A stretch of 64,000 nt of DNA from Candidatus Eiseniibacteriota bacterium. Its GTDB lineage: Bacteria > Orphanbacterota > Orphanbacteria > Orphanbacterales > Orphanbacteraceae. The translations under genes were made by a program, and so were the position numbers. Position 1 is the first letter of the stretch, and each line of letters opens with the position of its first letter. A model generated the notes under the pieces. That model was not told the DNA's origin and made no database searches. It saw only the letters and a program-made list of their open reading frames with translations. Location of the stretch: NCBI GenBank assembly GCA_029262235.1, contig JAJCZU010000004.1:372001-436000 (forward strand), in the 5' to 3' direction. Positions 9,093-61,070 of the stretch are shown here, in pieces.

Positions 9093-9665
9093 ATGAGTCA
9101 GCTACCTGACGAGATTACCGCGCTTCTCGATCTGGCCACGGCGGGTCGACCGGACGCGTCCGCGCGGGTCTTCGATCTTCTCTACGGCGAACTGCACAGG
9201 ATGGCAGGTTTCATTTTCCGGAGCCAGCCCGCGCAGCACACGCTGCAGCCGACCGCGCTCGTTCATGAAGCGTATATCAAAATGGTCGGGGCGAATCAGC
9301 CGCCGAAGTGGGAGAGCCGTCTGCACTTCATGCGGGTTGCTTCGCGCGCCATGCGGCACATACTGGTCAGTCACAGTCGTGCGAAAAACGCGGAGAAACG
9401 GGGCGGTGCCGATAAGGGAGAGCGCGTTACGCTGAGCATTGTCGCCGATCCCGCCGCACACCAGGTTCTCGACGTGATTGCTCTGCATCAGGCGCTCGAC
9501 CGGCTGCAGGAGCTCGACGCCCGTCAGTCAGAGATCGCGGAGCTTCGCTTTTTCGGGGGGCTCAAGAATCAGGAAGTGGCCGATGCGCTCGGCGTTTCGC
9601 TTCGCACGGTAGAACTCGACTGGAAGATGGCGAAAGCGTGGCTCGCGGAGCAGATGAAGGAGTAG
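9093..9665 (+). CDS. ECF-type RNA polymerase sigma factor (kinase-associated group), copy 1
   Basis: 190 residues. Region 2 is near residues 20-95 (VFDLLYGELHRMAGFIFRS, then LQPTALVHEAYIKMV and RVASRAMRHILVSHSR). Region 4 is near residues 130-185 (LDRLQELDARQSEIAELRFF, then EVADALGVSLRTVELDWKMAKAWL). The pattern matches the Sigma70_ECF (TIGR02999-like) family that is usually encoded beside eukaryotic-type Ser/Thr kinases. Here the kinase gene is convergent, with only 10 bp between the two stop codons. No anti-sigma factor is seen, so phosphorylation by the partner kinase is the likely control. The homologous pair at 58340-61649 has a different layout. Confidence 0.9.
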   Translation: MSQLPDEITALLDLATAGRPDASARVFDLLYGELHRMAGFIFRSQPAQHTLQPTALVHEAYIKMVGANQPPKWESRLHFMRVASRAMRHILVSHSRAKNAEKRGGADKGERVTLSIVADPAAHQVLDVIALHQALDRLQELDARQSEIAELRFFGGLKNQEVADALGVSLRTVELDWKMAKAWLAEQMKE

Positions 9666-9675
9666 TCGCCAAAGC

Positions 9676-12369
9676 TTATTGCGCCTGCAGCGCCTCCCCG
9701 ATCCGTCGTGCGCGTTCGCGCAGTGCGGCCGCCCGGTCGCTCCGGCCCATCTTTTCATAAAGCGCCGCATGTTCCTCGAGATTCGCCTTCACGAACGGGT
9801 GCGCCTCGCCGAGCGCCGCGTCGAAGTTGCGTTGACTGACCTGAAACAGGCTGTCGGCTGTCTCCCACTCTCCTGAATCCCGCTTCACACACGCAAGATT
9901 GTGAATCCCGATGGTCGTATTGGGATGTTCCGGGCCGAGCGCGTCGCTCCAGATTCTCGTAGCCCGCTCGTAGAGAGGGGTGGCGGATGCGTAGTCGCCT
10001 CGCAGACGATACACTTCCGCTACTCCGTTCAGTGCGCTCGCAAACGGCGGCGCTTCGGAACCGTACACACGTTCCGAGATCGCGAGCGTTCGATCGTAGT
10101 ACGCGAGCGCCTCTTCGTAGCGACCCATCGAGACGCGAATGTTCGCCATCTGGTTCAGCGGAATCAGCAGGTGATTGGACATCGGCCCGATCGCGCGTTC
10201 ATAGATCCCCGCAGCCCGCTCGAACAGGGAGTCGGCGCGTGAATGATCACCGCCGTCGAGCGCGAGTGTGCCCAGATTCGTCAGCGTGCTCGCGGTGTTC
10301 AGATGGCCCTCGCCGAAGGCTTCGAGGGCCACGGCGTGAGCGCGTTCGTAATACGCGCGTGCCTTCGCCCGTTCGCCGAGGTCGCGGTATACGAAACCAA
10401 GGCTCGAAAGCGGACCCATCAGACTCGGATGCGTCGCGTCACGCGCGCTCTCGTAGACCTCGATGACGTCCAGAAGCATGTCGCGTGCCGCCTCGAGCCT
10501 CCCGAGTCTTCGCAGGCATTCGGCGTGATTGAAGCGAAGCTGCGCGAATTCGGGATCCGTTTCGGGAAGATGCGTCGCGTAGAGTGCGGTCGCCTGTCGG
10601 AAGAGCGTGTCCGAACGTGTGAAGTTTCCCGCATCGCTTACGATGAGCGCATGGTTGTTCAGGCAGCGTGCGTACGCGAGCGAGGCGGGATCCTCCGCGC
10701 GATAGATCCGGATGGCTTCGGTGATATGCGTGGACGCTTCGGAAAAGCGGTCGCTTTGCGCCAGGTTGATCGCGAGTGTCATATGCGTAAACGCGAGTTC
10801 CGAATCTTCGGGCGACAACGTTTCCTTGCGAAGCGCGAGGGTCTTCTCGAGCAGGGGCGCCGCTTCGTCGTAGAGGCCGAGCTTTCGATACACGTCCCCC
10901 ATGAAGTGCATGAGCCTCGCCTGCACGGCCGGTTCTCCGGCTAGCTCCTGTTCCACTTCCTTCGCGCCGCGGTCGAGGATTTCACGCGCCGTCACCGTGT
11001 TCCCGCGTGATTCGCTCGGATCGGAAAGTTCGAACAGCCCGGTGATGAAAGAGAGAGCTTCTTCCGTTGTCTGCTGGTCACGGCGCGCGGCCTGTTCCGC
11101 GCGCTGAGCGCGGAGGAACCCGACGGCAAGGCCCGCGACGGCGACGACGAGTGCGGCCGCCACGAGAGTTCCGGCAACGACTCCGGCACGGTTGCGCCGT
11201 ACGAACTTCCCGACGCGATAGGAAGCGCCGGGTGGCCCTGCGCTTACCGGTTCGTTGTCGAGATACCGCTGTATGTCGGCCGCAAATTCGTTCGCCGTGC
11301 CATACCTTCTCTGCCGGTCCTTCTCGAGGGCCTTCAGCGTGATCCATTCGAGATCGCCGCGGAGCAGTCTGGCGAGCTGGCCCGGCGTGGTCTTCCGGTT
11401 TCGCGCGATCGCCGTCACGTCCTCGTCGGATCGGCGGAACAGCACGCTCGGTCGCGGCGGCTCCACTTCGCTCAGAATACGCGGCACCTCCGCGAGGCCG
11501 GCGCCGCGCAGTTCGTCGGAGCGGATCGGAAGCCGCCCCGTCAGCAGCACGTAAAGAAGCGTACCCAGGGAATAGATGTCGGAGCGAGTGTCGATGTCGA
11601 GCGCGTCGCCGCGCGCCTGTTCCGGGCTCATGTACTCGGGGGTCCCGATCAGCTGCCCCTTCATCGTGTAAAGCGTGCCTTCCGTCAGTACGCCCTGCGT
11701 GGCCTTTGCGATGCCGAAATCGATGATCTTGAGGTGATATTCCTGATCCACGGCGGAAACGAGAATATTGGCGGGCTTCAAATCGCGATGGATGATGCCG
11801 CGCTGGTGGGCATGCTGCACACCGCGGCAGACGGTGATGAACAGCGAAAGGCGCTCGTGCGTGGAGAGTTTCAGCCGATCGCAGAAGTCGACGATGGACT
11901 CTCCCGGCACGTATTCCATCACGAAGTACGAACGCCCGTCGGAGGAGACGCCGGCGTCGTGGATTTTCGCGATCGCGGGATGATCCATGATCGCGAGCGT
12001 CTGGCGCTCGGCGTTGAAGCGCGCCAGAACTCCCTTCGAATCCATCCCTCTCTTCAGCACTTTGATCGCAACGCGCCGCCGCACCGGGCGCAGCTGATCG
12101 GCGATATACACTTCGCCGAAGCCGCCTTCGCCGATCCGCTCGAGAATGCGATACGGGGAATCGTTGCCGAGTGAAAATTCCCCGGGGACCGGGGGCGCGC
12201 CGAAAGCGGCCGTGCTCACGGATTGCCGGGCGAGATACTCGCGCACATCCTGGAGCAGGCCCGCGTCCGATGCACACTCTCTGAGCAGGAAATCGTCCCG
12301 GTCTTTCTCGCGCACTTCGCTGGCCCGCAGTACGATCTCGCGTATCTTCTGGTAGCGCTTCCGATCCAC
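9676..12369 (-). CDS. Membrane Ser/Thr protein kinase with TPR repeats, copy 1
   Basis: 897 residues from GTG 12369, preceded by CAGGAG; a longer frame would run into the LysE gene. The first 50 residues are an acidic helical extension shared with the second kinase in this window. The kinase domain covers about 73-340, with the glycine loop GEGGFGEV (81-88), K103, the catalytic HRDLKPAN (H194-N201), DFG at D217 and GTPEYMSPEQA. It therefore looks catalytically complete. A juxtamembrane linker leads to one TM helix at about 393-418. Some ten tetratricopeptide repeats (residues about 470-880) follow, presumably periplasmic. It probably phosphorylates or recruits the adjacent ECF sigma factor in response to a signal sensed by the TPRs. 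It lies 28 bp downstream of the LysE gene. Confidence 0.9.
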   Translation of the reverse strand: MDRKRYQKIREIVLRASEVREKDRDDFLLRECASDAGLLQDVREYLARQSVSTAAFGAPPVPGEFSLGNDSPYRILERIGEGGFGEVYIADQLRPVRRRVAIKVLKRGMDSKGVLARFNAERQTLAIMDHPAIAKIHDAGVSSDGRSYFVMEYVPGESIVDFCDRLKLSTHERLSLFITVCRGVQHAHQRGIIHRDLKPANILVSAVDQEYHLKIIDFGIAKATQGVLTEGTLYTMKGQLIGTPEYMSPEQARGDALDIDTRSDIYSLGTLLYVLLTGRLPIRSDELRGAGLAEVPRILSEVEPPRPSVLFRRSDEDVTAIARNRKTTPGQLARLLRGDLEWITLKALEKDRQRRYGTANEFAADIQRYLDNEPVSAGPPGASYRVGKFVRRNRAGVVAGTLVAAALVVAVAGLAVGFLRAQRAEQAARRDQQTTEEALSFITGLFELSDPSESRGNTVTAREILDRGAKEVEQELAGEPAVQARLMHFMGDVYRKLGLYDEAAPLLEKTLALRKETLSPEDSELAFTHMTLAINLAQSDRFSEASTHITEAIRIYRAEDPASLAYARCLNNHALIVSDAGNFTRSDTLFRQATALYATHLPETDPEFAQLRFNHAECLRRLGRLEAARDMLLDVIEVYESARDATHPSLMGPLSSLGFVYRDLGERAKARAYYERAHAVALEAFGEGHLNTASTLTNLGTLALDGGDHSRADSLFERAAGIYERAIGPMSNHLLIPLNQMANIRVSMGRYEEALAYYDRTLAISERVYGSEAPPFASALNGVAEVYRLRGDYASATPLYERATRIWSDALGPEHPNTTIGIHNLACVKRDSGEWETADSLFQVSQRNFDAALGEAHPFVKANLEEHAALYEKMGRSDRAAALRERARRIGEALQAQ

Positions 12370-12397
12370 GTTCTCTCCTGAAGGTTCGTTCCCGCTA

Positions 12398-13036
12398 TTA
12401 TGCCTTTTCCAGGTTCGTCTGGAATAAGAGCATGAGCGCAAGCGCGACGAAGATCACGGCCGCGATCCGGTTCAGCACGCGCTGTGCGCCGTCGGAGCGC
12501 GCCCGCCATTCGCCGAGAGACCCGGCAAGCGTGGCGATCGTTCCGAAGACGAGCAGAACGGCGACGATAAACACGCCGCCGAGCGCGACGACCTGAACCG
12601 GCAGCGGTCCCCGTTCCGGAACCGCGAACTGCGGAAGAAACGCGAGAAAGAAGAACAGTACTTTCGGGTTCGTGATGTTCATGATGATGCCGCGCCCGTA
12701 GAGCCTGCGAAGCGGAATGCGCTCTCTCTGCCCGAACGGAATCTTCGAAGCCGACGCTCGCCACGCCCCCCACGCGAGGTAGAGAAGGTACGCGCCCCCG
12801 ATCAGCTTGAGCGCCGTGAACGCGAGGGGCGACGCGGCGAAGAGAGCCGCCACGCCGACCGCGACGGCCAGAGTGTGTATCAGAAGTCCCGTGCAGAGCC
12901 CGAGCATCACGCTGTACCCTGCGCGCCGTCCCCCGATCGCCGCCTGCGTGAGTACGAAGATGTTGTCGGGGCCCGGCGCGAGGCAGATCAGAAGCGACGC
13001 CACGAAAAACGGAATCAGACTGTCGATCGGAATCAT
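12398..13036 (-). CDS. LysE/RhtB-family amino-acid exporter
   Basis: 212 residues with about six membrane helices. The N-terminal hallmark of the LysE superfamily is present (CLAPGPDNIFVLTQ, then GRRAGYSVMLGLCTG). The family exports amino acids such as homoserine, threonine or lysine, or related metabolites; which one cannot be said. The ATG at 13036 has only a weak Shine-Dalgarno sequence (GGGGG). The downstream kinase starts 28 bp after this gene, so the two may share a transcript. Confidence 0.88.
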   Translation of the reverse strand: MIPIDSLIPFFVASLLICLAPGPDNIFVLTQAAIGGRRAGYSVMLGLCTGLLIHTLAVAVGVAALFAASPLAFTALKLIGGAYLLYLAWGAWRASASKIPFGQRERIPLRRLYGRGIIMNITNPKVLFFFLAFLPQFAVPERGPLPVQVVALGGVFIVAVLLVFGTIATLAGSLGEWRARSDGAQRVLNRIAAVIFVALALMLLFQTNLEKA

Positions 13037-18101: not shown

Positions 18102-20477
18102 GTGTTCGGCAAACAGACCCTGCGCCGGTTCATTCTCGCGACTTCCGTACCGCCGCTCCTGAACCTCTATCGTGGCTACTATTCGTTCGTGACGATGCTT
18201 GCGCTTCGCCTGTTCCGCACGTTTCCCGAAGTCAAAGCCGTGTATCTTCGCCGCGGGGGCGGAAGCGGTAAAATCTTTCCGCTCATCAGCGACCTCGACT
18301 TCGCGGTCTTCGTCGAGGAACTCGGCGAACAGCGCCGCCGGGAACTCGTTCGGCGCTACAAGGAGCTCGGGCGACGAACGACCGTTCTCGATCACTTTCT
18401 CGAACTCTACGACGTCCGCACGTTTGCGAACCTCTATCAGCGAAGCCGCCGCCAGTACCGGTTCATGGAAGGGCGCGCGACGTGGAAGCTGCTGTACGGC
18501 GAACCGTTCATGCAGACACTCCCCGCGCTATCGCTGGAGCAGATGCAGCCCGGGTTCTATCGGGAGCTCAAGATCTGGTGGACCGTGTTCGTATGGCGCC
18601 AGGTACAGAAAGGGCGCTACTACGACGAGCCGACCTCGCGGAATTCGCTCTGTTTCAAGGCCACGGCCGAAATCCTGAAAATGGAACTCGGGTTGTTTCA
18701 CGGCCGTCTGATCTATTCGAAGGACGAGGCGCTGGCGCAATCGACACCGTTCCTCGACGCGACCGAAGCCGCGCACGTTGCGAACGTGCGGAAGATCGGG
18801 CGGCGACACTATCGCGGGGGGAGCGCGGCACTCGCGGGCGAAACGCTGCACTTTCTGATGGAGCGGTTCGACCGCGTTGCGGCGAGATTCAGCGATCATC
18901 CGCTGGGCCGCGCACCGGACCGGGCCGGGCTCGACGCGCCCGCGGTCGTGACCGAACCCGCAGCGGGTGTGAGCGGGGAGGGGGGCGCACTGCGCGCGCG
19001 CGCGGATCGCATCGTGGCCCATGTGCGCGCGTCCTGGGGGGATACGTATCGAGGGGCGGCTCTCGTTACGGGCTTCTACTTCGAGATGGGGGAGAGGGCC
19101 CTCGTCCTCGCGGTCGATCCCGCGCGCCCGCCTTCGATCGAGCAACTGCGCGCACTCTACGAACGGCACCTGGCCAATGGCGCCCGCACGAACGCTCCCC
19201 CGACAGACACCGGCGGTGAGGAACGCGAAGAGACGGCCCTTCGACTCTACGTGCTCCTCCGCCGCGTCGCTCTTCAGATCGATGTCGACTACTACGCACG
19301 CGGATGGCAATCGGTGCTGCTCCCCGAAAGCAACCCGGACGTGTTCACGCTTCTGGCGCATCCGGAGTCGTGGATCGACGGCGCGCCGGACGCGTCTTCG
19401 GAGCCGGGCCGCGCGCAGCCGAATGCGCCGGGATACCCGTGGACCGCTCTTGCGGGGAATTTCGTGGACGAGGAACGCGACGAGAGCCGGGAGCAACTGC
19501 GAGGAGCAACGCCGGCGCAGGCCGGGAACGGGGCCATCCGCGCTGCCGCGTGGAGTCTGCTTCGCTACGAAGTCATGCGGGCAGGAACCCGTGCGGGAAC
19601 TGCACTCGTTCCGCTGACGAAGAGTGCGCTGCTCAGAGCGGCGTCTCAGTGCGGGCTCGGTCCTGTCGTCACGATCCTGATGCCGTGTCGCGATGCCGAC
19701 CCTGCGCTTTTTCGCAGGGCGATCGCTTCCGTACTCTCGCAGACCGACGCAGCCTGGCGCCTGATCGTGATCGACGACGGAAGTGAAGACGCCGGGACGC
19801 GCGCGGAACTGGACGCGCTCCGGGATACGCGCGATCCGCGCATTCGCGTCGCGCCGAGCGAGGCGCGCATGGTGACGGGCGCTCTCAATACGGGCATGCG
19901 CCTGGCCGACACTCCGTTCGTCTGCATGTTTCATTGCGACGATCTTCTCGCGCTTCACGCACTTTCCGTTCTACGCCGGGAAATCGAAAACAGCCCGGCC
20001 GTCGATTATTTTCATTCGTCACGTGTTCATATCGACGAGCACGACGCCCCGCTCGACGAACCGTATGAGGCGCGCGAGTCGTTCACGCTGGACGACTTCA
20101 AGGCACACGGCCCCGTGAAGCACCTGCACTGCTGGCGCGTGGGCAAAGCAATCGAAGCCGGGGGGATGGACGAGACGCTCGGGCCGCACGGCGCCGACGA
20201 TTACGACTTCCCCTGGACGATGATGGAGGCGGGCGCGCGTTTCCAGGCGATCCGCGAGTGCCTCTACTATTATCGCGACCGAGGGGCGCAGAAACGCCTG
20301 ACGACACATGTGCCGCTCGATACGCAGGTGGGCGAGCTCGTGAAGATCTTCCGGAAGCACGGCATGACGGAACAGGAAATCGAAGACCAGATCAGAATAC
20401 GGCGCGCGGGGTATCTGCAGCAGGCGCTCTACAAAACGGACGCGGATGTGCCCCCGGGCGGAACCGGCACGAGCTGA
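18102..20477 (+). CDS. Nucleotidyltransferase-fold protein fused to a family-2 glycosyltransferase
   Basis: 791 residues from GTG 18102, one base after the flippase stop. The N terminus (about 1-110) has a nucleotidyltransferase-like motif: YLRRGGGSG at 48-56, then SDLDFAVF with D64 and D66, recalling the G-S...D-x-D site of polymerase-beta-type enzymes. Residues up to about 500 are an uncharacterised helical region shared with the gene at 26999-28657 (for example WQSVLLPESNPDVF). From about 520 to 760 there is a GT2 domain: VTILMPCRDADPALFRRAI, VIDDGSED, CMFHCDD for the metal site and GADDYDFPW for the late acidic motif. I infer a bifunctional enzyme of surface-glycan assembly. The pairing is unfamiliar to me. 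The 3' end overlaps the convergent propeller gene by 49 bp. Confidence 0.75.
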   Translation: MFGKQTLRRFILATSVPPLLNLYRGYYSFVTMLALRLFRTFPEVKAVYLRRGGGSGKIFPLISDLDFAVFVEELGEQRRRELVRRYKELGRRTTVLDHFLELYDVRTFANLYQRSRRQYRFMEGRATWKLLYGEPFMQTLPALSLEQMQPGFYRELKIWWTVFVWRQVQKGRYYDEPTSRNSLCFKATAEILKMELGLFHGRLIYSKDEALAQSTPFLDATEAAHVANVRKIGRRHYRGGSAALAGETLHFLMERFDRVAARFSDHPLGRAPDRAGLDAPAVVTEPAAGVSGEGGALRARADRIVAHVRASWGDTYRGAALVTGFYFEMGERALVLAVDPARPPSIEQLRALYERHLANGARTNAPPTDTGGEEREETALRLYVLLRRVALQIDVDYYARGWQSVLLPESNPDVFTLLAHPESWIDGAPDASSEPGRAQPNAPGYPWTALAGNFVDEERDESREQLRGATPAQAGNGAIRAAAWSLLRYEVMRAGTRAGTALVPLTKSALLRAASQCGLGPVVTILMPCRDADPALFRRAIASVLSQTDAAWRLIVIDDGSEDAGTRAELDALRDTRDPRIRVAPSEARMVTGALNTGMRLADTPFVCMFHCDDLLALHALSVLRREIENSPAVDYFHSSRVHIDEHDAPLDEPYEARESFTLDDFKAHGPVKHLHCWRVGKAIEAGGMDETLGPHGADDYDFPWTMMEAGARFQAIRECLYYYRDRGAQKRLTTHVPLDTQVGELVKIFRKHGMTEQEIEDQIRIRRAGYLQQALYKTDADVPPGGTGTS

Positions 20478-23665: not shown

Positions 23666-24601
23666 TTACGGCCGAATCCCGGGGCGGACCCCGCGTGTGG
23701 TCGTTTTTACGCGATACACCGACGTCTCGGCCGTGATGTAGAGCGTGTTGCCCTCTTCGTCTCCCCAGGCGCAGTTCGACGGCTTCTCGGGCATCACCAC
23801 CGTTCCCCGCTTTTCGCCCCCGGGCCCCAGCACCCATAGGCCGCGCGCGCCCGTACACCAGATTCGCCCTTCGACGTCGAGCTTCATGCCGTCCGGCGCG
23901 CCCGGCGCCCGCACGTTCATGTCATGAAAGAGGCCGCCGCGGTCCGTGAGCGAGTTGTCGTCGTTCACACGAAACGATCGAATGTGGCGGCGCGACCGGC
24001 TGGAATCGTCGACGTAGAGAACGCGCTCGTCGGGTGAGAATCCAAGCCCGTTCGGCTTCGCGAAGTCGTGAACGACGGGTTCGGGCGGACCGCCTTCCGG
24101 TGGAATGCGAAATACGCCCTGGAACGGCAGCTCCTGCTCTTCCGGTCGAATCCCGTACGGCGGGTCCGTGAACCAGATTGCGCCGCCGGAATGAACGACC
24201 ACGTCGTTCGGGCTGTTCAGGCGCTTGCCGTTGTATGCGTCGGCGAGCACCGTGATCGTGCCGTCGCGCTCCGTACGCGTGACACGCCGCGATCCGTGTT
24301 CGCACGCGATCAGGCGACCCTGCCCGTCGAGCGTCAGCCCGTTCGCATGATAGCTCGGCTCGCGAAAAATCGCCGGCGCGCGTCCCGGTTCCAGTCGATA
24401 GATCCGGCCCGCGGGAATGTCGGTGAAGAGAAGTGCGTGTTCGTCCGGAAGCCAGACGGGTCCTTCGGTGAATTGAAATCCCGTGGCGAGACGTTCGACA
24501 CGAAACTGCGCAGGAAAAAGCGCGCGGAAATCGGGGGCGTTGCTTTCGAGCCGGCCGTTTCGAAGCAGGAAGCGACGAAGCCTGCGTTTCAACCCCGCCA
24601 T
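23666..24601 (-). CDS. SMP-30/gluconolactonase/LRE-family protein
   Basis: 311 residues from ATG 24601, preceded by GAGGAGG. A six-bladed SMP-30 propeller: FQFTEGPVWLPDEHALLFTD supplies the first metal-site Glu, then LNSPNDVVVHSGGAIWFTDP with the central Asn, and PNGLGFSPDERVLYVDDSS with the catalytic-site Asp. The family hydrolyses sugar lactones or related esters with a divalent metal. There is no signal peptide; a short basic N terminus (MAGLKRRLRRFLLR) precedes the propeller. It is the last gene of the long minus-strand operon, 13 bp after the Gfo/Idh/MocA gene, which could produce the lactone that this enzyme opens. Confidence 0.85.
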   Translation of the reverse strand: MAGLKRRLRRFLLRNGRLESNAPDFRALFPAQFRVERLATGFQFTEGPVWLPDEHALLFTDIPAGRIYRLEPGRAPAIFREPSYHANGLTLDGQGRLIACEHGSRRVTRTERDGTITVLADAYNGKRLNSPNDVVVHSGGAIWFTDPPYGIRPEEQELPFQGVFRIPPEGGPPEPVVHDFAKPNGLGFSPDERVLYVDDSSRSRRHIRSFRVNDDNSLTDRGGLFHDMNVRAPGAPDGMKLDVEGRIWCTGARGLWVLGPGGEKRGTVVMPEKPSNCAWGDEEGNTLYITAETSVYRVKTTTRGVRPGIRP

Positions 24602-24614
24602 GGCGCCTCCTCTT

Positions 24615-25829
24615 TCATCCGCGGAACCGGCGCATCTGCGTGCGCCCCGATACCAGTTCGTCCATGAGCTGTGCGTCTTCGGTGCGGTCGACGGGGAAGG
24701 CCACGGCGCGCCCCCGTATCGCCGACAGATAAATGGCGCGCACGAATTCGAGCGTGCCGCGCGCGTCCTCGCCGGTGATGATCGGATCGCCCCCCGTTCG
24801 AATCGCATGCGCGAAACTTTGCAGCAGAACCGCGAGGCCGTGCGGTTTCAGCCCGCGCACGAGACCGAACCGTTCGAGCAGCTTCTTCCATTTCGGCGGG
24901 TCTCCCACGAGGGGCACGGGCGACCATTGTACGTGCGGCTGCCCGGTGAGGCCGCCGATGCCGGCCGGGGCGGGGGGAGCGTGCGTGTCGAACCGCCCGA
25001 GCAGTACGTGGTCTTTGTGGTCGAACGTGAGGCTCTGCGTGTCGGGAATCTCGATCATGCCGCGCTCGCCGATGATCTGGCGAACGACATGCGACTGCGG
25101 ACGGTTGACGCTCGCCGTGATCGTAGCAAGCGCGCCCCCTTCAAACAGCACGGAGGCGCTCATGATGTCCTCGGTTTCCGCATCGTGCTTCTGGTTCACT
25201 GCCAGCGCGCTCACTTCAACCGGTGCGCCGATCAGCCAGGTGAGCACATTCAGGTCGTGGCTCAGGCTGTGCATTGTGACGCCGCCCCCCGCGTCCTTCC
25301 AGTTCTGGCGCCAGGGATAATGGGAGTAGTATTTCTCGTCCCGGTGCTGGGCCCATGTCCACAGAATCTGGCGGGGCCTGCCGATCGCGCCGTCTTCGAT
25401 CAGCTTCTTCGTCGTCCGGTGCAGGCGGTGCACGCGATACTGGTGGCCCACGGTCAGCACCCGCTTTTTCGCGCGTGCTGTTTCGACCACGCGATCCGCG
25501 TCGGCCAGTGTGAGCGCGATGGGCTTTTCGAGAAAGACGTGAAGGCCGGCTTCCATGCACTCGATGGCCATATGCGCGTGGAGCAGGCTCGGAGTCGCGA
25601 TCGCCACGGAGTCGAGCCGGCCCGAAGCCAGCATGTCACGCCAGTCCGCGAACGGTGCGGCGCCGTACATCGTGGCGGCCTTCTCGATCCGGGCCGGGTC
25701 GCTGTCGGCCACGCCGACGAGCGTGACATCGGGAGACGCGGCCGCGATCCGGCAGTGGACGCCCCCGATCCCGCCGACTCCGATCACCCCGTGCCGCAGA
25801 AGCGGTCCCTGTTCATTGCCTCGCATCAT
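24615..25829 (-). CDS. Gfo/Idh/MocA-family oxidoreductase
   Basis: 404 residues from ATG 25829 (ATG 25826 is equivalent). The N-terminal Rossmann fold has GVIGVGGIGGVHCRIAA. The family's NAD-site and catalytic motif EKPIALTLADADRVV contains the conserved E-K-P. The C-terminal domain carries GGGVTMHSLSHDLNVLTWL, in which the His/Asp cluster is the likely catalytic site. It oxidises or reduces a sugar or inositol-like ring with NAD(P). It sits within the glycan operon, 7 bp after the split GT2 genes and before an SMP-30 lactonase, so a nucleotide-sugar or free-sugar modification is plausible. Confidence 0.88.
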   Translation of the reverse strand: MMRGNEQGPLLRHGVIGVGGIGGVHCRIAAASPDVTLVGVADSDPARIEKAATMYGAAPFADWRDMLASGRLDSVAIATPSLLHAHMAIECMEAGLHVFLEKPIALTLADADRVVETARAKKRVLTVGHQYRVHRLHRTTKKLIEDGAIGRPRQILWTWAQHRDEKYYSHYPWRQNWKDAGGGVTMHSLSHDLNVLTWLIGAPVEVSALAVNQKHDAETEDIMSASVLFEGGALATITASVNRPQSHVVRQIIGERGMIEIPDTQSLTFDHKDHVLLGRFDTHAPPAPAGIGGLTGQPHVQWSPVPLVGDPPKWKKLLERFGLVRGLKPHGLAVLLQSFAHAIRTGGDPIITGEDARGTLEFVRAIYLSAIRGRAVAFPVDRTEDAQLMDELVSGRTQMRRFRG

Positions 25830-25836
25830 TTTTCGC

Positions 25837-26541
25837 CTACCGCCTCCTCGTTCGTGTGGCTTCGATGTAGAGCATGCCCTCGCGCAGGCCGCCGAGAAAC
25901 CCGCCGAGCACATAGGCCGCGTCGGCGATGTAGCGAATGCCGGAGAACACGATCGAGCGCACGGGTGTGCGGGGGTCGAAGCGAATCCCGAAGTACCAGC
26001 CGGCGCTGAGCAGGAAAAGTGCGCCTGCCGCGAGCATGAGCCCGCCCGCGTTCGTGATCGCCGCCGCCGCGCCGAGAAACAGCGCAAGATGCATGAAGTG
26101 GAAGCTGCTGAGGAAGATCATCCCGGGCACCGGGAACGGGATGTCGAGCACGCACGCGATGCCGAACGGGTTCGCGTTGTTCTCGGACAGGTCGTAGCGA
26201 AACATCTGCAGACGCCGGCGCGGTTCGTGCTTGCGCCAGAGATACGCGTGGCCGAGGCCGTAGTGGTACCACTGTTTCAAGAGACCGCGCAGCGTGTAGC
26301 GATGGAAGTGCGCGATGCGCGCCGTCGGTTCGAACCAGAGTTCGTAGCCCGCGCGCGCGACGCGGATGCAAAGATCCACGTCTTCGCCCGTATCGCAGCG
26401 CGTGTCGAACCCGTCGACTTTCTCGAGCGCCTCTTTTCGAAACGCCGCGTTCGCCGTCGCGAAAAACGGATGAAAGACGCCGGTTCCCTCGCGCGGCAGG
26501 TATCCTTTGCGATATCCGCACTTCGTGATGTCGATGATCAT
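25837..26541 (-). CDS. C-terminal half of a split family-2 glycosyltransferase, with membrane helices
   Basis: 234 residues from ATG 26541, whose ATGA overlaps the TGA of the upstream gene. The N-terminal third is the late half of a GT2 catalytic domain: FHPFFATANAAFRKEALEKV, DGFDTRCDTGEDVDLCIRVA with the base-providing E-D motif, and WFEPTARIAHFHRYTLRGL. Two to three hydrophobic helices follow (MIFLSSFHFMHLALFLGAAA, then GLMLAAGALFLLSAGWYFGI), as in membrane-attached GT2 enzymes. The nucleotide-binding and D-D-D parts are absent and are supplied by the overlapping upstream gene. The two products may assemble into one active enzyme. A sequencing or biological frameshift is the alternative. 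Confidence 0.75.
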   Translation of the reverse strand: MIIDITKCGYRKGYLPREGTGVFHPFFATANAAFRKEALEKVDGFDTRCDTGEDVDLCIRVARAGYELWFEPTARIAHFHRYTLRGLLKQWYHYGLGHAYLWRKHEPRRRLQMFRYDLSENNANPFGIACVLDIPFPVPGMIFLSSFHFMHLALFLGAAAAITNAGGLMLAAGALFLLSAGWYFGIRFDPRTPVRSIVFSGIRYIADAAYVLGGFLGGLREGMLYIEATRTRRR

Positions 26542-27002
26542 GCTTCGTCCTCGCCCGGGCGCCCCATCCGCATGAGTGTCTCCGCCGCGCAGAAGGACTC
26601 GATCCACGTGCCGGCACGTTCGTCGGAAAGAATCTCGCCGCCGACCGCTCCGATATGCGGATTGAGCGTGAACGGCGCGAGCATCCGCTCCACCCAGTCG
26701 GGCTCGGCCACGCAGTCGTCGTCGGTGAAGATCACGATCTCGCTCATCGCTTCCCGCCATCCGCGGTTGCGCGCGTGCGGGATCCCGGGCGTCTTCTCGA
26801 TCACCACGCGGAGCGGAAGCGAATTGCGATACCGCGCGATCGTTTCTTCGTAGCTTACGGAAGAGTTGTTGTCGACCACGAGCACCTCTTCCGGCATGCG
26901 CGTCTGCTCCACGAGCGAGGCGAGAAGCCGGTCGAGCAGCTCCGGGCGGTCCTTCGTTACGACCACCACGCTGGCGGTCGGGATTTCTGTCGGCTTGTTC
27001 AC
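26538..27002 (-). CDS. N-terminal half of a split family-2 glycosyltransferase
   Basis: 154 residues from GTG 27002, which overlaps the upstream stop as GTGA and has GGAGAGG 8 nt before it; an ATG at 27023 is open but worse placed. The sequence is the donor-binding half of a GT2 fold: SVVVVTKDRPELLDRLLASL, EVLVVDNNSS, TPGIPHARNRGWREA and the metal motif IVIFTDDDCVAEPDWVERML. It stops at GRPGEDEA, just before the acceptor-binding part, which continues in the next gene through an ATGA overlap. Full-length GT2 enzymes need both halves. Confidence 0.78.
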   Translation of the reverse strand: MNKPTEIPTASVVVVTKDRPELLDRLLASLVEQTRMPEEVLVVDNNSSVSYEETIARYRNSLPLRVVIEKTPGIPHARNRGWREAMSEIVIFTDDDCVAEPDWVERMLAPFTLNPHIGAVGGEILSDERAGTWIESFCAAETLMRMGRPGEDEA

Positions 27003-28657
27003 GAGTCGATCCTCTCCAGCCATGCGAGCGCTTCGCTCATGAGCGAAGCCACGGATGAGTTCGCGTCCTGCGCGCGATCGCCGGCACGCACTGCCGCCTC
27101 GTAGGCCGGGCCGAGCGGGCGCAGTTCCACGGGGAGCGGCATGCCCGCTGTTTTCAGCGCCTCTTCGAGCGCAGACGTCGTCATGGCGTAAACGACCTCA
27201 CCTTCGGCCGCCGTGCGGTTCAGGAGCACGAGCTGCGCCGTCTTCCAGAAGATGCGCAGAAAGTCACGATCGTTCAGTTTATAGATCGACGGCTTTTTCA
27301 CCAGTTCGTAGAACAGAAACTTCTCCTCTTCGAAAAAATGGGCGACCGGGCGCGTCCACGCCGGACGATCGTCGCGCGGTCCGTCCAGGATTTCGAAGAC
27401 ATCCGGGTTGTTGAACGGTGTGAGCACGGATTGCCAGCTCTGTTCCAGATCCTGCGTGTCGATCTGAAAGGCGGCTTCCGGTGTGCGGAGATAGACGCGA
27501 AATCGAGCGGCGAGGTCAGGAGGCAGCGTTTCGTGAAAGCGATTGAGCGCCGCGATCTGTGCGACGGTCGGCGCGTTTTCCGGATCGATCGGGATGAAAT
27601 AGCCGAATTCGTCCAGATTGAAATACGCGGCGGGCGCGAGTTTCGTCCCGCCCGATGCGCCCGGTCCCCATTCGGCCTCGAGCCAGTCATCGAGCGCCTT
27701 CCTGTGAGCCCTTTCCCGCGGCCCCCCCGCCCCCCGCGCACCAGGCGCACCAGGAACCCCGCTGTTCGCGGGAACAACTCGCTGCCCGATCGCGCGTCCG
27801 GGACAGGCATCGTGATCGATCGGCCCCGCGAAAGAATGATCGCGTCGGAGGCGCGTGTAGAAATCGTTCAGATGTCGAAACAGAAACGCGTGCGTCTCTT
27901 CGAGCACTCCCGGAATATCGCCGCGGAAGCCGCGTCCGGCCGATGCGAGCAGGCGGGCGCCCAGCTTCTGTTCGTCCGGCGGAAGGGCGGGCATCGCGTT
28001 CTCGAGCGCTTCCCCGCGGTCGAAAGTAAGATCGTCCCGCGTCAGCGCCCGATCCATCTTGAGAATCTCACTCATCGTCTTGAAGCAGAAGCTGTTGCGC
28101 GTAACGGACTCCGCGTTGTACTTCCGGTCATGGAAGAAGCGCCACGCGAAAAGCGACCACCACACTTTGACTTCGTTCGCGAACCCGCCGTACAGATCGC
28201 TCACGCCCTTCGCCGGAAGCGCGGCCACGGGATCCGCCCCGTCACGCGAGTAGAGCAGCTTCCATGTGGCCTTTCCCTCGACGAAGCGAAACCGGAAATA
28301 GTCGTTCCGTTCGTAGACGGCCAGCAGCTCCTCCTGCGTGTAGATCTCGAGCGTGCGATCGAGGAGAGTCGTGATCTCTGCCACGCGATCGTAGGAACGA
28401 CGAAGAGACCGCATCTCCTCTTCGGGGAACGGCCCGCCGATCACGGCGAAATCGATGTCGCTTACGAGTGGCACGATCTGGCCCTTGGCGCCACCACGCC
28501 GGAGATACACGGCCTCGACGTGCGGGTGACGGCGAATCGCATGAAGCGCCCACGCGGTCACGGCCCGGTAGATGCCGAGGTAAACCGCGAGAAACGGGGG
28601 GAACGAAGTCGCGAGCACGAACCTTCGAACGGCGAGTTTGAAACGCGGCGCACTCAG
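26999..28657 (-). CDS. Nucleotidyltransferase-fold protein, paralogue of the 18102-20477 N-terminal region
   Basis: 552 residues if translation starts at the CTG at 28657, which overlaps the upstream stop as CTGA and lies 6 nt after GGGAGG; the next in-frame candidate is GTG 28618, which would cut into the conserved start. RRFVLATSFPPFLAVYLGIY matches the paralogue closely. The putative active site is YLRRGGAKGQIVPLVSDIDF (G-G...D-x-D). Shared downstream blocks are EGKATWKLLY, RNSFCFKTMSEILKMDRALT and WQSVLTPFNNPDVFEIL. Unlike its paralogue it has no glycosyltransferase domain. A Gly/Ala/Pro-rich spacer occurs near residues 300-325. A role in activating or transferring a group in surface-glycan synthesis is inferred from context only. 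Confidence 0.7.
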   Translation of the reverse strand: MSAPRFKLAVRRFVLATSFPPFLAVYLGIYRAVTAWALHAIRRHPHVEAVYLRRGGAKGQIVPLVSDIDFAVIGGPFPEEEMRSLRRSYDRVAEITTLLDRTLEIYTQEELLAVYERNDYFRFRFVEGKATWKLLYSRDGADPVAALPAKGVSDLYGGFANEVKVWWSLFAWRFFHDRKYNAESVTRNSFCFKTMSEILKMDRALTRDDLTFDRGEALENAMPALPPDEQKLGARLLASAGRGFRGDIPGVLEETHAFLFRHLNDFYTRLRRDHSFAGPIDHDACPGRAIGQRVVPANSGVPGAPGARGAGGPRERAHRKALDDWLEAEWGPGASGGTKLAPAAYFNLDEFGYFIPIDPENAPTVAQIAALNRFHETLPPDLAARFRVYLRTPEAAFQIDTQDLEQSWQSVLTPFNNPDVFEILDGPRDDRPAWTRPVAHFFEEEKFLFYELVKKPSIYKLNDRDFLRIFWKTAQLVLLNRTAAEGEVVYAMTTSALEEALKTAGMPLPVELRPLGPAYEAAVRAGDRAQDANSSVASLMSEALAWLERIDS

Positions 28658-29871
28658 CGTCCGCCTCCCGCGTTCCGGTTGCCGGCTGCGACTGCGTGTT
28701 CCGCCAGGACCTTTTCGTAAACCGCCTCCGTACCGATCGCCGTCTGCTCCCACGTCGACTTTTCGAGTACCAGCGCGCGTGCGCGCGCACCGAGTTCCGC
28801 TCCGAGCTTCGGCTTCGCGAGAAGGTCGAGCATCGCGTTCGTGAAGCCGGGAATGTCGTGGTCTTCCACAATCCAGCCGTTCCTGCCGTGATCGATATTT
28901 CTGGCGGATCCGGCGAACGAAAGCACGGGCAGACCCCCCGCCATGTAGTTCAGGAGCTTCTGGGGAATGCCGTCGCACTCGGTGCGCGGATTCACGGCGA
29001 GATGGGCGCGACCGAACTCTTCGGGAAGGCGTTCGAAACCGCCGGGAACCACTTCGATCCGGTCACGGATTCCGAGCGCGCGTGCGAGCTCCTCGTAGGC
29101 ATCGAAGCGGGATCCTGTCACCAGCACGAGCTTCAGGTCGTGCCGTTTCCTGCATGCCCCACTGAACGCGTGAAGCAGCAGTTCGATCCCCTGGTATGCC
29201 GACAGATTCCCCGCGTAGATCACGCGGCGTTCGGCGCTGTCGTCCTGCCACCGGCTCCCGTTCATCGCGGACCCGAAATGGGCGGCTTCGACGCCGTTCT
29301 GCACTTTGCTCACGCGATCCGGCGAAAGACCGGCGTGGCGCACGAGATGCGAGCGGATCTGTTCGGTTACCGCGATCACATGTTCGGCTTTGCGGGGAAG
29401 CCAGCTGTCGATTTTACGCCCGATGCCGCGCTTCCAGCTCGCGGGAAGGCCGAGCTTGTAAAACGGCAACTCGGACTCGAGAAGCGTGTGTGCGTCGTAG
29501 ACGATCGGATGCTTCGTAGCGCGTCGTGCCGCGGCGGCCACGAGGAGTCCTTCATAATGATGGGCGTGAATCAGATCGATGTCGTGTTCGCGCACGACCG
29601 CCCGCAGCTTGCGCGCAAGGAGCGGATCGATCAGCAGCAGTTTCTGATATGTGGGGCCGGGCGAAAGCTTGCGATACGTTTTCACATCCCCGATCCGATG
29701 CACGGGAAACGGCGTCGGTTCGTTCATGTCGCCGTGGTGGTACGTTACGACATGCACTTCGTTTCCGCGCGCGATCAGTGCCTCGGTCATGCGCAGAATA
29801 CGCACGGGCGTCCCGCGCTGGTACGGGAAGGGACACGCGGCGACCATCGCGATCTTGTACGTCCGGCTCAT
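28654..29871 (-). CDS. Family-4 glycosyltransferase (GT-B, glycosyl_transf_4/1)
   Basis: 405 residues from ATG 29871, overlapping the upstream stop as ATGA. The GT-B fold has an N-terminal acceptor domain (KIAMVAACPFPYQRGTPVRI, then EHDIDLIHAHHYEGLLVAAA) and a C-terminal donor domain with RRVIYAGNLSAYQGIELLLH and the retaining E-x7-E-like region ECDGIPQKLLNYMAGGLPVL. It probably transfers a sugar from a nucleotide-sugar donor to a lipid-linked glycan at the inner face of the membrane. It is embedded in the overlapping operon between an HprK-like kinase and the nucleotidyltransferase-fold protein. Confidence 0.88.
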   Translation of the reverse strand: MSRTYKIAMVAACPFPYQRGTPVRILRMTEALIARGNEVHVVTYHHGDMNEPTPFPVHRIGDVKTYRKLSPGPTYQKLLLIDPLLARKLRAVVREHDIDLIHAHHYEGLLVAAAARRATKHPIVYDAHTLLESELPFYKLGLPASWKRGIGRKIDSWLPRKAEHVIAVTEQIRSHLVRHAGLSPDRVSKVQNGVEAAHFGSAMNGSRWQDDSAERRVIYAGNLSAYQGIELLLHAFSGACRKRHDLKLVLVTGSRFDAYEELARALGIRDRIEVVPGGFERLPEEFGRAHLAVNPRTECDGIPQKLLNYMAGGLPVLSFAGSARNIDHGRNGWIVEDHDIPGFTNAMLDLLAKPKLGAELGARARALVLEKSTWEQTAIGTEAVYEKVLAEHAVAAGNRNAGGGR

Positions 29872-30917
29872 GACGACGCCTTTCCGTACCGCGCGCGCAG
29901 GAACTGCGCGACCTCGTCGGCGTTGCAATCGATGTCCGTGCCGAGCAGGAGTTCGTATGTCTCGCTTCTGCGAATGAGACGGAGCGACGCGACGAAGCGC
30001 GACCAGTGAATCGGAATCTGCCGGAACGGGTCGCCGAGGTCGAAGCGAATCACGTACTCGAGAAGCTGCGGCAGCCCCGATCCCGCCACGCAGAGCTGAA
30101 AGAGCGTGCGAAACGCCTTCATGCGTGAGATCGGCACGATCTTCGGTTTCTCCTGCTCGGTCCTTCGGCCGATGAACAGAACGCCCGGTGTGGTTTCGCC
30201 CGCGATGCGATCCTGGAAGTAACGCGTGTCGATCAGTGTCTTCGGTCCGTACCGCCTGCGCTGAAACGGCTTCGTAAACGACGCCGGGATCTTGTGCGGG
30301 AAGCCGGGAAGCACGCCGATTCGAATGGGCATCGGCAGAAGGGTGCCGCTGCGCGTCACGAGGGGTATCTCTTCGGAGAGCAGCTCGAAGCCGTCCCGCT
30401 CCATCAGCGAAAGGGCCAGAGTCGTTTTTCCGCCCCCCATGTTCATAAGGCAGAGCGCCGCGCGTCCTTCGTGTGCGACTCCCATCGCGTGAATGCGATG
30501 AATCCCTTTTGCGTCGAGAAGCGCGCCGGCCCGTGTCACGATCATGAGATACGCTTTCTCGTACAGGAGGTCGCGGTCGCGTGTGTGGATCCCGGCATGC
30601 CCGCTCCTCGGATCGAAAATGACGAGCACTTCGCGCCGGGAGTCGTAGTAGAGCACGCCGCCGATCCTGTAAACGTCGGCATCTTTCGTTCGCCAGATAC
30701 GTTTTCGTCCGGCGATCGAATCCCAGGGCGGCTCACTATAATGGAGACGAACCGTGGCATCGGGCGCCGCGCCCCTCGCATCCGGCGCCTCATCCGGCCC
30801 CGCACCCGGCGCATCGAGAAACAGCGAAAAGTCGGTCTCCACGAAACGCATCGCTTCCTCGTCTTCGGATTCCACACGAATGCGGGCACCGTGAAATGTG
30901 AAGTCGAGCGCCGTCAT
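29868..30917 (-). CDS. HprK-like (HPr kinase-type) P-loop protein
   Basis: 349 residues, ATG 30917 overlapping the upstream stop as ATGA. The N-terminal 100 residues are mixed and include an Ala/Pro/Asp-rich insert (about 37-55). The C-terminal domain holds a Walker A loop, MNMGGGKTTLALSLMERDG (160-166 core), followed by FELLSEEIPLV with the acidic residues at the position used by HPr kinases. Such stand-alone HprK C-domain homologues are common in exopolysaccharide loci of many phyla and do not act on HPr; their substrates are not settled. Context suggests phosphorylation of a sugar, lipid or protein in glycan assembly. Confidence 0.75.
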   Translation of the reverse strand: MTALDFTFHGARIRVESEDEEAMRFVETDFSLFLDAPGAGPDEAPDARGAAPDATVRLHYSEPPWDSIAGRKRIWRTKDADVYRIGGVLYYDSRREVLVIFDPRSGHAGIHTRDRDLLYEKAYLMIVTRAGALLDAKGIHRIHAMGVAHEGRAALCLMNMGGGKTTLALSLMERDGFELLSEEIPLVTRSGTLLPMPIRIGVLPGFPHKIPASFTKPFQRRRYGPKTLIDTRYFQDRIAGETTPGVLFIGRRTEQEKPKIVPISRMKAFRTLFQLCVAGSGLPQLLEYVIRFDLGDPFRQIPIHWSRFVASLRLIRRSETYELLLGTDIDCNADEVAQFLRARYGKASS

Positions 30918-32470
30918 CGGGGGAGCGCGCTTTCACTTCCGGTCGTGTCCGCCATGCCGGTCGTGCCGGTGGCACTCGTCATGCCGGTCGCGTCCTGCTT
31001 TCGCTCATACAATCTCGCGTCGATCGAAACGGTCTTGCCCATCGCCGTGTTCACGGTATCCCATCGCTTTTCGAATACTACGTCGCGGTTGTTCGCGAGC
31101 ACATCCCGGATTTCACCCTTCGGATCGCGCGAGTACGACTCGACGTACCATACCCGTGTCTCCGTCACTACAGCCGTTCCGAGCGAATCGAGAAGATCCG
31201 TGAAGTAGAACGTGCCGGTGGGCGGAAACAGGGCGAGTCGGGGCGGATCACCCGGCCAGTAGTGGAGGAACGGGGTTCTTGCAACACTGCTGTGCAGGAT
31301 CATCAGGTCGCCCGGCTCGTACCGCTCGCCGATCGTGGCTGTCGCTTCCCGCCAGGGCGCCCGGTTTTCGGTCGTGTAGTACGTCCGAAGATCCGCAGCC
31401 GCGAGAAGCAGGACCACCGCGACCGCCGCTGCGCGGATACGGGGCGAGGGGAGCAGGCGGATACCCCACGCGACGAGAATGTAGAACGCCAGGGAGGACC
31501 CGATCGTATAGCGCGTGATGAATGCCTGGGGCATGAAAAGATGCGCTCCCACGAACGGCACGATGATCGGGACGAACAGCCAGAGCAGCAGCAGGAATAC
31601 CCTGCGATCGAAGCGTGTCAGAACGGGAACTGCGGCGAGCAGTCCGTAAAGCACGAACTGAACGTGCGTGCCCGAATAGGTGATGAACGGGCCGATCAGT
31701 TTTCTGAGAGCAGGCGGCGGATAGTCCGGTCGTTTGGATTCGTGCGTCTGGACGTCGTGCACGAGCTGTCCGATCCAGGGAAAGAACAGGGCGACGATCA
31801 TCGCCTGCAGCAGGAACCAGTGAACGAGTCCGGCTGCCGGACGATCCGCCGCAGTGCCGTTCGGATCGTCGTTCGATCTCCCCGCACGCTCGATCAGTCG
31901 CGCGCCGCCGAAGTACATCGTGAGAAAGTACGCGTTCTGAGCGAAGATCACGAAGATCCCGTAGAAATGAGTGTAGAGCGCACCGACGTTCGCGAGAACG
32001 AGGAACGCCGAGTTCAGGACCGTCGGCTTTTCCATGAAGCGGACGAACGCGAGCAGCGTCAGCGCGACCATCAGCGCGAGCAGCGAATACGGCCGCGCGT
32101 CCTGTGCGTAGTGAATCTGGAAGACCGCAACCGCAAGGATCAAAGTCGTAAGGAGCGCCGTAGATCGATCGGTCAGGCGCCGCGTGGCGAAGAAAGCCGT
32201 GCCGAGCGCAAGCATGCTGAAGAGGAACGAAGGGAAGCGTAGCGCGAACTCGGAAGAACCGAAGGTCCCCGCCCACATGTGAGCGATCATGAAGTAAAGA
32301 GGCGTGTGGTTCCAGTTCGACGCGATCATGTCGTCGATCGTCATGTGAACGAGATCATACGTAGAGACTTCATCGAGCCAGAAGCTCTCGAGGCCGAGGT
32401 GATACAGGCGAAGGCCCGCCGCGAGAGCGAGAATGAGGACGAAGATCGCGATTCCGCGTGCGCTTTTCAT
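30914..32470 (-). CDS. Membrane glycosyltransferase, GT39/ArnT-like (PMT_2)
   Basis: 518 residues from ATG 32470, overlapping the upstream stop as ATGA. The N-terminal helix is followed by the hallmark first loop HLGLESFWLDEVSTYDL with D33-E34, the catalytic-type Asp-Glu pair of GT-C enzymes using polyprenyl-phosphate sugars. A second family block is YAQDARPYSLLALMVALTLL. Nine to eleven membrane helices are visible, then a C-terminal periplasmic domain of about 130 residues ending in a Met/Thr/Gly-rich repeat tail (TGMTSATGTTGMADTTG). It should transfer a sugar from a lipid carrier on the periplasmic side of the membrane. Confidence 0.85.
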   Translation of the reverse strand: MKSARGIAIFVLILALAAGLRLYHLGLESFWLDEVSTYDLVHMTIDDMIASNWNHTPLYFMIAHMWAGTFGSSEFALRFPSFLFSMLALGTAFFATRRLTDRSTALLTTLILAVAVFQIHYAQDARPYSLLALMVALTLLAFVRFMEKPTVLNSAFLVLANVGALYTHFYGIFVIFAQNAYFLTMYFGGARLIERAGRSNDDPNGTAADRPAAGLVHWFLLQAMIVALFFPWIGQLVHDVQTHESKRPDYPPPALRKLIGPFITYSGTHVQFVLYGLLAAVPVLTRFDRRVFLLLLWLFVPIIVPFVGAHLFMPQAFITRYTIGSSLAFYILVAWGIRLLPSPRIRAAAVAVVLLLAAADLRTYYTTENRAPWREATATIGERYEPGDLMILHSSVARTPFLHYWPGDPPRLALFPPTGTFYFTDLLDSLGTAVVTETRVWYVESYSRDPKGEIRDVLANNRDVVFEKRWDTVNTAMGKTVSIDARLYERKQDATGMTSATGTTGMADTTGSESALPR

Positions 32471-33597
32471 CGGGCGCCTTTCGGAAGCAGGCGGACGACG
32501 AGCGCCCACCAGAAGTTCGTGGCGCCGTTCAGCACGGCCAGTCCGGCACGCGTAATCGCGCCGGCGGCAAGTTCGGGCGTGAAAGGCACGGGCCCGCTTG
32601 CGAGAATGTCGCGGTCCGGTACGCGCCTCGCATTCTGCGCGGCGCGCCGTTTCGCGAATACTTCGCCCGCATGTGCGATCATCCAGCCCGCCGCGCGAAG
32701 CCATTCGCCCAGCCATCCCTTCGCGATCGCGCCGGCGAACTGAAACGCTTCGAAGAGCAGCAGGGCCGGGGCGAGCAGCATGAGCGTCGCCGCCTGGTAG
32801 TGAATCAGCAGAATCTGCCACCGGTTCCGGATCGTGCAGAAGACGCGGCGCTTCGTGTGGACGCCGGTGCGGCGCAGCGAAAGTCCTTTCGTGCCTTCGC
32901 GATGAAGCGCGTGCGCGGCGGGAACGCTGAGAACGCGATGCCCTTGCGCCCGCGCTCGTATGCCCGTTTCGAGATCCTCGAGATAGATGAAGAACGATTC
33001 GTCGAACGGATTCCCGCACGGCCAGCGCGTCCGGTCGATCATGTAGCAGGCCGTGACAACGGCCCCGATCGCGCGCGTTTCCGTCGGAGCGCCCGCAAGC
33101 GCCCGGCGTTCGTTGTGCAGGGCCATGAGTCCCAGAAAGTGGCAGTGTGCGCCGTCGTACTGGATCGTGTCGGGGCTCGTCGCGTAGAGAATGCGCGGCA
33201 TGGCGAGAACAGCCGCCGGGTCGCGGTCGAGCGCCTCGTTCAGCAGGCGAAAGCAGCCCGGTGCGGGGATTACGTCGTTGTCGATCATCGCCACGCGCCC
33301 GCTGCTGGCGTTTCGAAGCGCGGCGTTCCGGGCGGCGGCAGGGCCGTGGTTCTCTTCGAGTTTCACGATACGGACCGAGGGGAAATGGCGTGTGACAATC
33401 GCAACACTGGCGTCCGTCGATCCGTTGTCGACGAGTACGACTTCGCCGTAGTAGTCACTGTCGTCCCCTTCGAGAACGGACGAAATCACGTCTTTCAGAA
33501 ACTCTTCACCATTATAGTTGATGATACAGAGGCTCGGCTTTTCCGCGGGGTTGCGCGTTGCCGCGCCGCTCTCGTGCATGGAATCGGTCATCGGCAT
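32467..33597 (-). CDS. Family-2 glycosyltransferase with C-terminal membrane region
   Basis: 376 residues from ATG 33597, with GGAGG 11 nt upstream (ATG 33591 is also possible). The GT2 fold has SLCIINYNGEEFLKDVISSV, EVVLVDNGSTDASV, MIDNDVIPAPGCFRLL for the metal site and ESFFIYLEDLETGIRARAQG for the E-D motif, like rhamnosyltransferase-type enzymes. A hydrophobic segment around 260-290 (LLIHYQAATLMLLAPALLLF) suggests membrane attachment. It begins 5 bp after the SDR gene stop and overlaps the GT39 gene by 4 bp, so it is co-translated with both. Confidence 0.88.
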   Translation of the reverse strand: MPMTDSMHESGAATRNPAEKPSLCIINYNGEEFLKDVISSVLEGDDSDYYGEVVLVDNGSTDASVAIVTRHFPSVRIVKLEENHGPAAARNAALRNASSGRVAMIDNDVIPAPGCFRLLNEALDRDPAAVLAMPRILYATSPDTIQYDGAHCHFLGLMALHNERRALAGAPTETRAIGAVVTACYMIDRTRWPCGNPFDESFFIYLEDLETGIRARAQGHRVLSVPAAHALHREGTKGLSLRRTGVHTKRRVFCTIRNRWQILLIHYQAATLMLLAPALLLFEAFQFAGAIAKGWLGEWLRAAGWMIAHAGEVFAKRRAAQNARRVPDRDILASGPVPFTPELAAGAITRAGLAVLNGATNFWWALVVRLLPKGAR

Positions 33598-61066: not shown

Positions 61067-61070
61067 AGCG

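Follow-up and report, generated by a model that had tools for sequence, protein, structure and literature searches.

The window analysed here, a stretch of 64,000 nucleotides from a Candidatus Eiseniibacteriota genome (G000; 4.47 Mb in 11 contigs), carries a family-2 glycosyltransferase (GT2) on two consecutive open reading frames (ORFs) (Table 1). The N half runs from a GTG start to a TGA stop and displays the TDDDC motif at residues 93-97; the C half starts with ATG and has its GED motif at residues 52-54. The first-pass annotation had given only the donor half of one GT2 domain to the former product and only the acceptor half with the membrane part to the latter, and both assignments were borne out. 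PF00535 matched the N half with 82.8 bits (cut-off 23.3) over profile positions 1-114 of 168, and PF13632 matched the C half with 51.1 bits (cut-off 27) over positions 71-182 of 198, so that both halves pass curated GT2 cut-offs of Pfam on complementary parts of the profiles. By Kyte-Doolittle (19 residues, at least 1.4), only the C half of the window pair has hydrophobic segments, at about residues 126-188. As also claimed there, the two genes are joined by an ATGA stop/start overlap at the middle of the domain; the break falls between the VGG-strand/helix on the donor side and the FFATAN strand on the acceptor side, and the ATGA is the same in all three orthologous loci found in the phylum sample. 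A GT2 domain on one chain is the usual form but no formal requirement; in these three loci, it is distributed over two ORFs. TDDD (N half, residues 93-96) and GED (C half, residues 52-54) are invariant in the three orthologues, and we take them to have a DXD-type donor role and an acidic (ED) role, respectively, in the split pair.

Table 1. Features of the split GT2 locus and its conserved neighbours (window coordinates).
Feature	Position	Strand	Remarks
N half, donor (nucleotide-sugar) half of GT2	26538..27002	(-)	154 aa, TDDDC, without hydrophobic segment
C half, acceptor half (FFATAN...TGEDVD) with C-terminal hydrophobic region	25837..26541	(-)	234 aa
ATGA stop/start overlap, N half/C half	26538..26541	(-)	identical in two other orthologues
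Upstream gene, family unknown (nucleotidyltransferase-like by eye, SDIDFAV)	26999..28723	(-)	in the same three of seven phylum genomes as the split GT2
GFO/IDH/MocA oxidoreductase, downstream, conserved neighbour	24615..25829	(-)	
SMP-30/gluconolactonase-like protein, conserved neighbour	23666..24808	(-)	listed 5' end overlaps oxidoreductase ORF
GT4-type glycosyltransferase, conserved neighbour	28654..29928	(-)	
HprK-related kinase-like protein (weak), conserved neighbour	29868..30917	(-)	
PMT_2 mannosyltransferase-like membrane protein, conserved neighbour	30914..32419	(-)	
Second GT2 glycosyltransferase of the cluster, intact	32467..33597	(-)	

The neighbours of the pair, including two other glycosyltransferases, a PMT-like protein, and an oxidoreductase, suggest a role in surface-polysaccharide synthesis. 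The gene directly upstream had no match in Pfam or NCBIfam at the thresholds applied; a second copy with 39% identity lies in the window at 18108-19367 (+) (G000:C4:390108-391367). By eye, the HprK-like protein has a GGGKTT nucleotide-binding loop; its match to HprK-related kinase A is weak, with 27 bits (cut-off 200). Away from the cluster, reading of the translations only pointed to what are presumably a sigma-factor-like ORF and, beside it, a long ORF beginning like a regulatory kinase, at 9093-12441 and again at 58340-61649. The neighbouring genes had been said to share the overlap type of the two halves. This is correct for four 4-nt junctions (GT2c/PMT, PMT/HprK-like, HprK-like/GT4, and nucleotidyltransferase-like gene/N half), the last being GTGA in the window and ATGA at the N-half start of the orthologous locus in genome G005, but not for the C half and the oxidoreductase, which are separated by a 7-nt gap with no overlap. 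As an argument for a real split, the overlap type of the neighbours is weak by itself, and it is conservation that decides.

Our phylum sample comprised seven genomes, that of the window included, and orthologues of the C half were present in three of them, namely G000, G001 of the same genus, and G005 of another genus. Identity to the window copy amounted to 91% (G001) and 74% (G005) for the C half and to 88% and 68%, respectively, for the N half, and conservation reached up to the junction in both halves. In G001 and G005, the N half is likewise a separate ORF with the same break point and the same ATGA. The other four genomes of the sample lack the gene, their best matches being weaker, more distant GT2s. 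A search with a profile of single-chain relatives returned the split pair as the best match in all three orthologue genomes; none of the seven has a whole GT2 copy that scores comparably. The comparison of orthologous loci called for by the first-pass annotation thus gave three loci split at one point with ATGA and not a single intact close orthologue among the seven phylum genomes. The observation of a split GT2 is confirmed, and its recurrence at the same place is more than chance. In G005, nine genes are syntenic, in the order GT2, PMT-like, HprK-like, GT4, unknown upstream gene, N half, C half, oxidoreductase, and SMP-30-like, and the two halves are the most similar of the nine (N half 71%, C half 74%), the other seven showing 40-61% identity.

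In a wider search, 15 of 386 genomes matched the C-half profile (E 1e-14). Three were the split trio, 11 carried both halves in one ORF, and the remaining one, G365 of another phylum (L050, 706-2061 (+)), has a GT2 that an in-frame TAG interrupts close to its GED region, not at the break of the trio; this TAG could be decay, error, or readthrough. Across the loci examined, the trio's own left out, we counted 61 distinct ORFs with both halves in one frame, and the sole case outside the trio above 40 bits with a C part only (G006, L007/L037) is cut by a contig end. Further searches at E 1e-18 gave matches in nine of 74 genomes of the phylum of G265 and in 19 of 45 of that of G070; at E 1e-14, none of 64 genomes matched in the phylum of G150, which was picked for the closest 16S outside the window's phylum (85%). 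Among plasmid records, two matched the C half, one of them annotated as mftF, and 30 the N half, all at less than 60% identity.

Aligned by profile with 11 single-chain proteins, the split halves are colinear with them, hydrophobic tail included; residues 3-141 of the N half fall on columns 10-153 (99.6%) and residues 22-228 of the C half on columns 185-394 (99.9%). Between fixed points, the single chains have 16-35 residues (median 35, n = 30 ORFs with a C-half score of 70 bits or more) and the split pair has 38, which together with the colinearity places the break in a connecting segment with no part lost. These 30 single-chain GT2s with a C-terminal hydrophobic tail are colinear with the pair over almost the full length and share its motifs and tail, but each is one gene and one chain, and they belong to other phyla. 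In trees of 57 single-chain ORFs and the trio (four of the 61 were dropped for low score; the C-half tree was made by a quick method), the trio formed one group with a support of 100/100 for the N half and 99 for the C half, and was not placed inside any single-chain group in either tree. Since its place among the single chains is thus unsettled, a single-chain ancestor is the economical reading rather than a demonstrated step. The nearest single-chain relatives, from other phyla, are only about 26-36% identical, and with this distance and the lack of a tree placement the immediate ancestor is out of sight; none was found in the 386 genomes and the phyla of G265, G070, and G150.

We consider it probable that the locus goes back to an old gene fission and that two chains, made by termination-reinitiation, reassemble into a single membrane-bound GT2 in which the donor and the acceptor each have a subunit of their own. 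An ancestral single-chain GT2 with a C-terminal membrane tail would have been split between the VGG-strand/helix on the donor side and the FFATAN strand on the acceptor side, and the split would then have been fixed in the lineage. A ribosome would end the N half at the TGA of ATGA and restart on the overlapping ATG, so that both chains should be made together and at similar levels. Soluble donor subunit and membrane-bound acceptor subunit may then fold together into one GT-A catalytic unit, which would transfer a sugar to a surface-polysaccharide acceptor that is lipid-linked or lies near the membrane.

The halves might instead stay apart, as separate proteins (one soluble and sugar-nucleotide-binding or regulatory, the other a membrane protein) or with each partnering other glycosyltransferases of the cluster. 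Other GT2s do lie nearby, and the stem branch of the trio is 1.8 in the N tree against 0.5 in the C tree, values that come from differing methods and columns. Nevertheless, we regard such a separation as unlikely, as the halves are adjacent and in order in all three loci with a 4-nt overlap, and the pair together keeps every segment of the single chains, TDDD and GED included.

A second question is whether the ribosome or the transcript slips at the junction, so that programmed -1 frameshifting or transcript slippage would join the frames into one full-length working chain. The frames are indeed related by -1, and G000 has one heptamer of the X XXY YYZ type, CCCGGGC, 19 nt ahead of the stop. 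However, over the region in which a slip could bring the frames together (57 nt in G005), neither G001 nor G005 has any heptamer of this type, so that no slippery heptamer upstream of the stop is conserved (one of three genomes), and the last 200 nt before the stop contain no homopolymer of five or more in any of the three. Neither does the RNA in the 100 nt downstream of the junction fold better than shuffles (z +1.28, +0.07, and +1.18). What is conserved instead is an in-frame ATG exactly at the stop; in all three genomes, the ATG of the C half overlaps the TGA of the N half in the 4-nt ATGA typical of termination-reinitiation pairs. This ATG, along with the lack of a shared heptamer, homopolymer, or unusual fold, favours termination-reinitiation, and we rate a joined chain as quite improbable. 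The 22 nt ahead of this ATG pair with the anti-Shine-Dalgarno no better than background in G000 and G001, where 33.6% and 42.5% of windows, respectively, do as well; the 8.0% of G005 is no more than suggestive. According to the tests described in PMC6728339, overlapping gene pairs were strictly coupled in 13 of 14 cases, and the need for a Shine-Dalgarno motif varied among coupled pairs. Pairs at a distance of -8 to +10 nt are reported in PMC10666635 to encode subunits of a complex more often (30.4% vs 6.8% in E. coli). Our split pair shares the ATGA overlap type with such coupled, complex-subunit-enriched pairs (PMC6728339, PMC10666635), and by analogy its halves may be coupled as well.

Purifying selection acts on both halves: pairwise comparison of the three orthologues (Nei-Gojobori, NG86) gave dN/dS values of 0.19, 0.19, and 0.16 in the N half and of 0.12, 0.10, and 0.11 in the C half. 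For the close pair, the value of the N half (0.19) exceeds that of the C half and those of three of the four measured neighbours (0.10, 0.12, and 0.13), the PMT-like gene showing 0.26. For pairs with G005, dS reached 1.4-1.9, with synonymous sites near saturation, and the split arrangement must thus be long-lasting. Within 46 codons of the junction, G000 and G001 differ at 1, 1, and 11 codon positions in the N half and at 0, 0, and 7 in the C half, third positions differing most on both sides. A decaying pseudogene, whose inactivating frameshift was inherited by three lineages, might be suspected, given that a single chain is usual elsewhere (61 distinct ORFs), but neither reading frame has closed, changes at third positions predominate to either side of the junction, dN/dS stays at 0.10-0.19 with dS near saturation, and the catalytic-type motifs are invariant, which makes decay highly improbable. 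Purifying selection on both halves, together with synteny, supports a functional pair. A frameshift introduced into an intact gene by sequencing or assembly, a common artefact of metagenome-assembled genomes (MAGs; G001 and G005 are such assemblies) for which the single base step between the frames would speak, is rejected as having next to no probability, because the same break stands in three separate assemblies, at 74-91% C-half identity and differing sequence around the junction.

With the same break and ATGA in two other orthologous loci, the split is no error, and since it is kept in three separate genomes of two genera, the two-part enzyme is probably real and not a sequencing slip. The reading of the first-pass annotation as a real split is supported; that one enzyme arises from the two chains, we infer. 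By homology, the N half is predicted to bind the nucleotide-sugar via TDDD, and the C half to provide the acceptor side and the membrane anchor along with the acidic GED motif. As each chain is without the part of the other, a heterodimer completing one GT-A domain at the membrane is the simplest working form, and we infer both the association of the chains into a complex and its enzyme activity. AlphaFold2 models of each half, based on three-row alignments, were poor (mean pLDDT 38.6 and 51.9). Among the 50 PDB matches listed, the N-half model, poor as it is, resembled GT-A enzymes with query TM-scores of only about 0.33-0.45, the best (E about 1e-4, query TM about 0.4) including chondroitin polymerase and dolichyl-phosphate mannose synthase; no solved structure credibly matched the C-half profile. 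It is somewhat more doubtful than fission with reassembly, though still more likely than not, that the enzyme is an obligate two-chain GT-A, split inside the catalytic domain, with a soluble subunit for the donor, a membrane-embedded one for the acceptor, and an activity dependent on their association.

Which known systems come closest? The best NCBIfam match of both halves is the mycofactocin biosynthesis glycosyltransferase MftF (TIGR03965), at adjacent profile positions 72-215 and 227-312 of 467, but with 102.1 (N half) and 82.0 bits (C half) both remain far under the equivalog cut-off of 280 bits; MftF is a single chain, and its profile reaches well beyond the split pair. Alg13/Alg14 and EpsF/EpsE are enzymes of the GT-B fold. 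These GT1/GT28-related enzymes of two domains are split between the domains, whereas the window pair is split inside one domain of the GT-A type, and its matches over curated cut-offs are to GT2 families, not GT1/GT28. In Alg13/Alg14 and the bacterial EpsF/EpsE, as described in PMC8993221, a donor-binding chain and a membrane/acceptor chain work as a pair, and both pairs arose by gene split. A separately encoded donor chain and membrane/acceptor chain are also what our locus displays, the roles being assigned by homology. For PGAP4, a GPI-GalNAc transferase, PMC5785973 describes a "split GT-A fold" whose membrane helices lie close to the catalytic cavity; unlike the window pair, PGAP4 is one chain with inserted tandem transmembrane helices, and a eukaryotic Golgi enzyme (PMC5785973). 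Heterodimers of whole glycosyltransferases, such as chondroitin synthases, have been described. Our literature search, whose scope did not extend to many subscription papers, returned no two-chain GT-A made from one split catalytic domain.

Enzymes of the GT-A type are usually pictured as one compact domain. Half-genes such as those at our locus may be discarded by annotation pipelines as fragments or frameshifts. The split GT2 offers a natural test case for the assembly of a GT-A active site and a natural scaffold for swaps of donor or acceptor halves. A lineage that has kept a GT-A enzyme on two chains suggests that donor half and acceptor half can each be a folding or assembly unit of its own, and, if the dependence on both chains is true, association of the donor and acceptor subunits could control GT-A activity.
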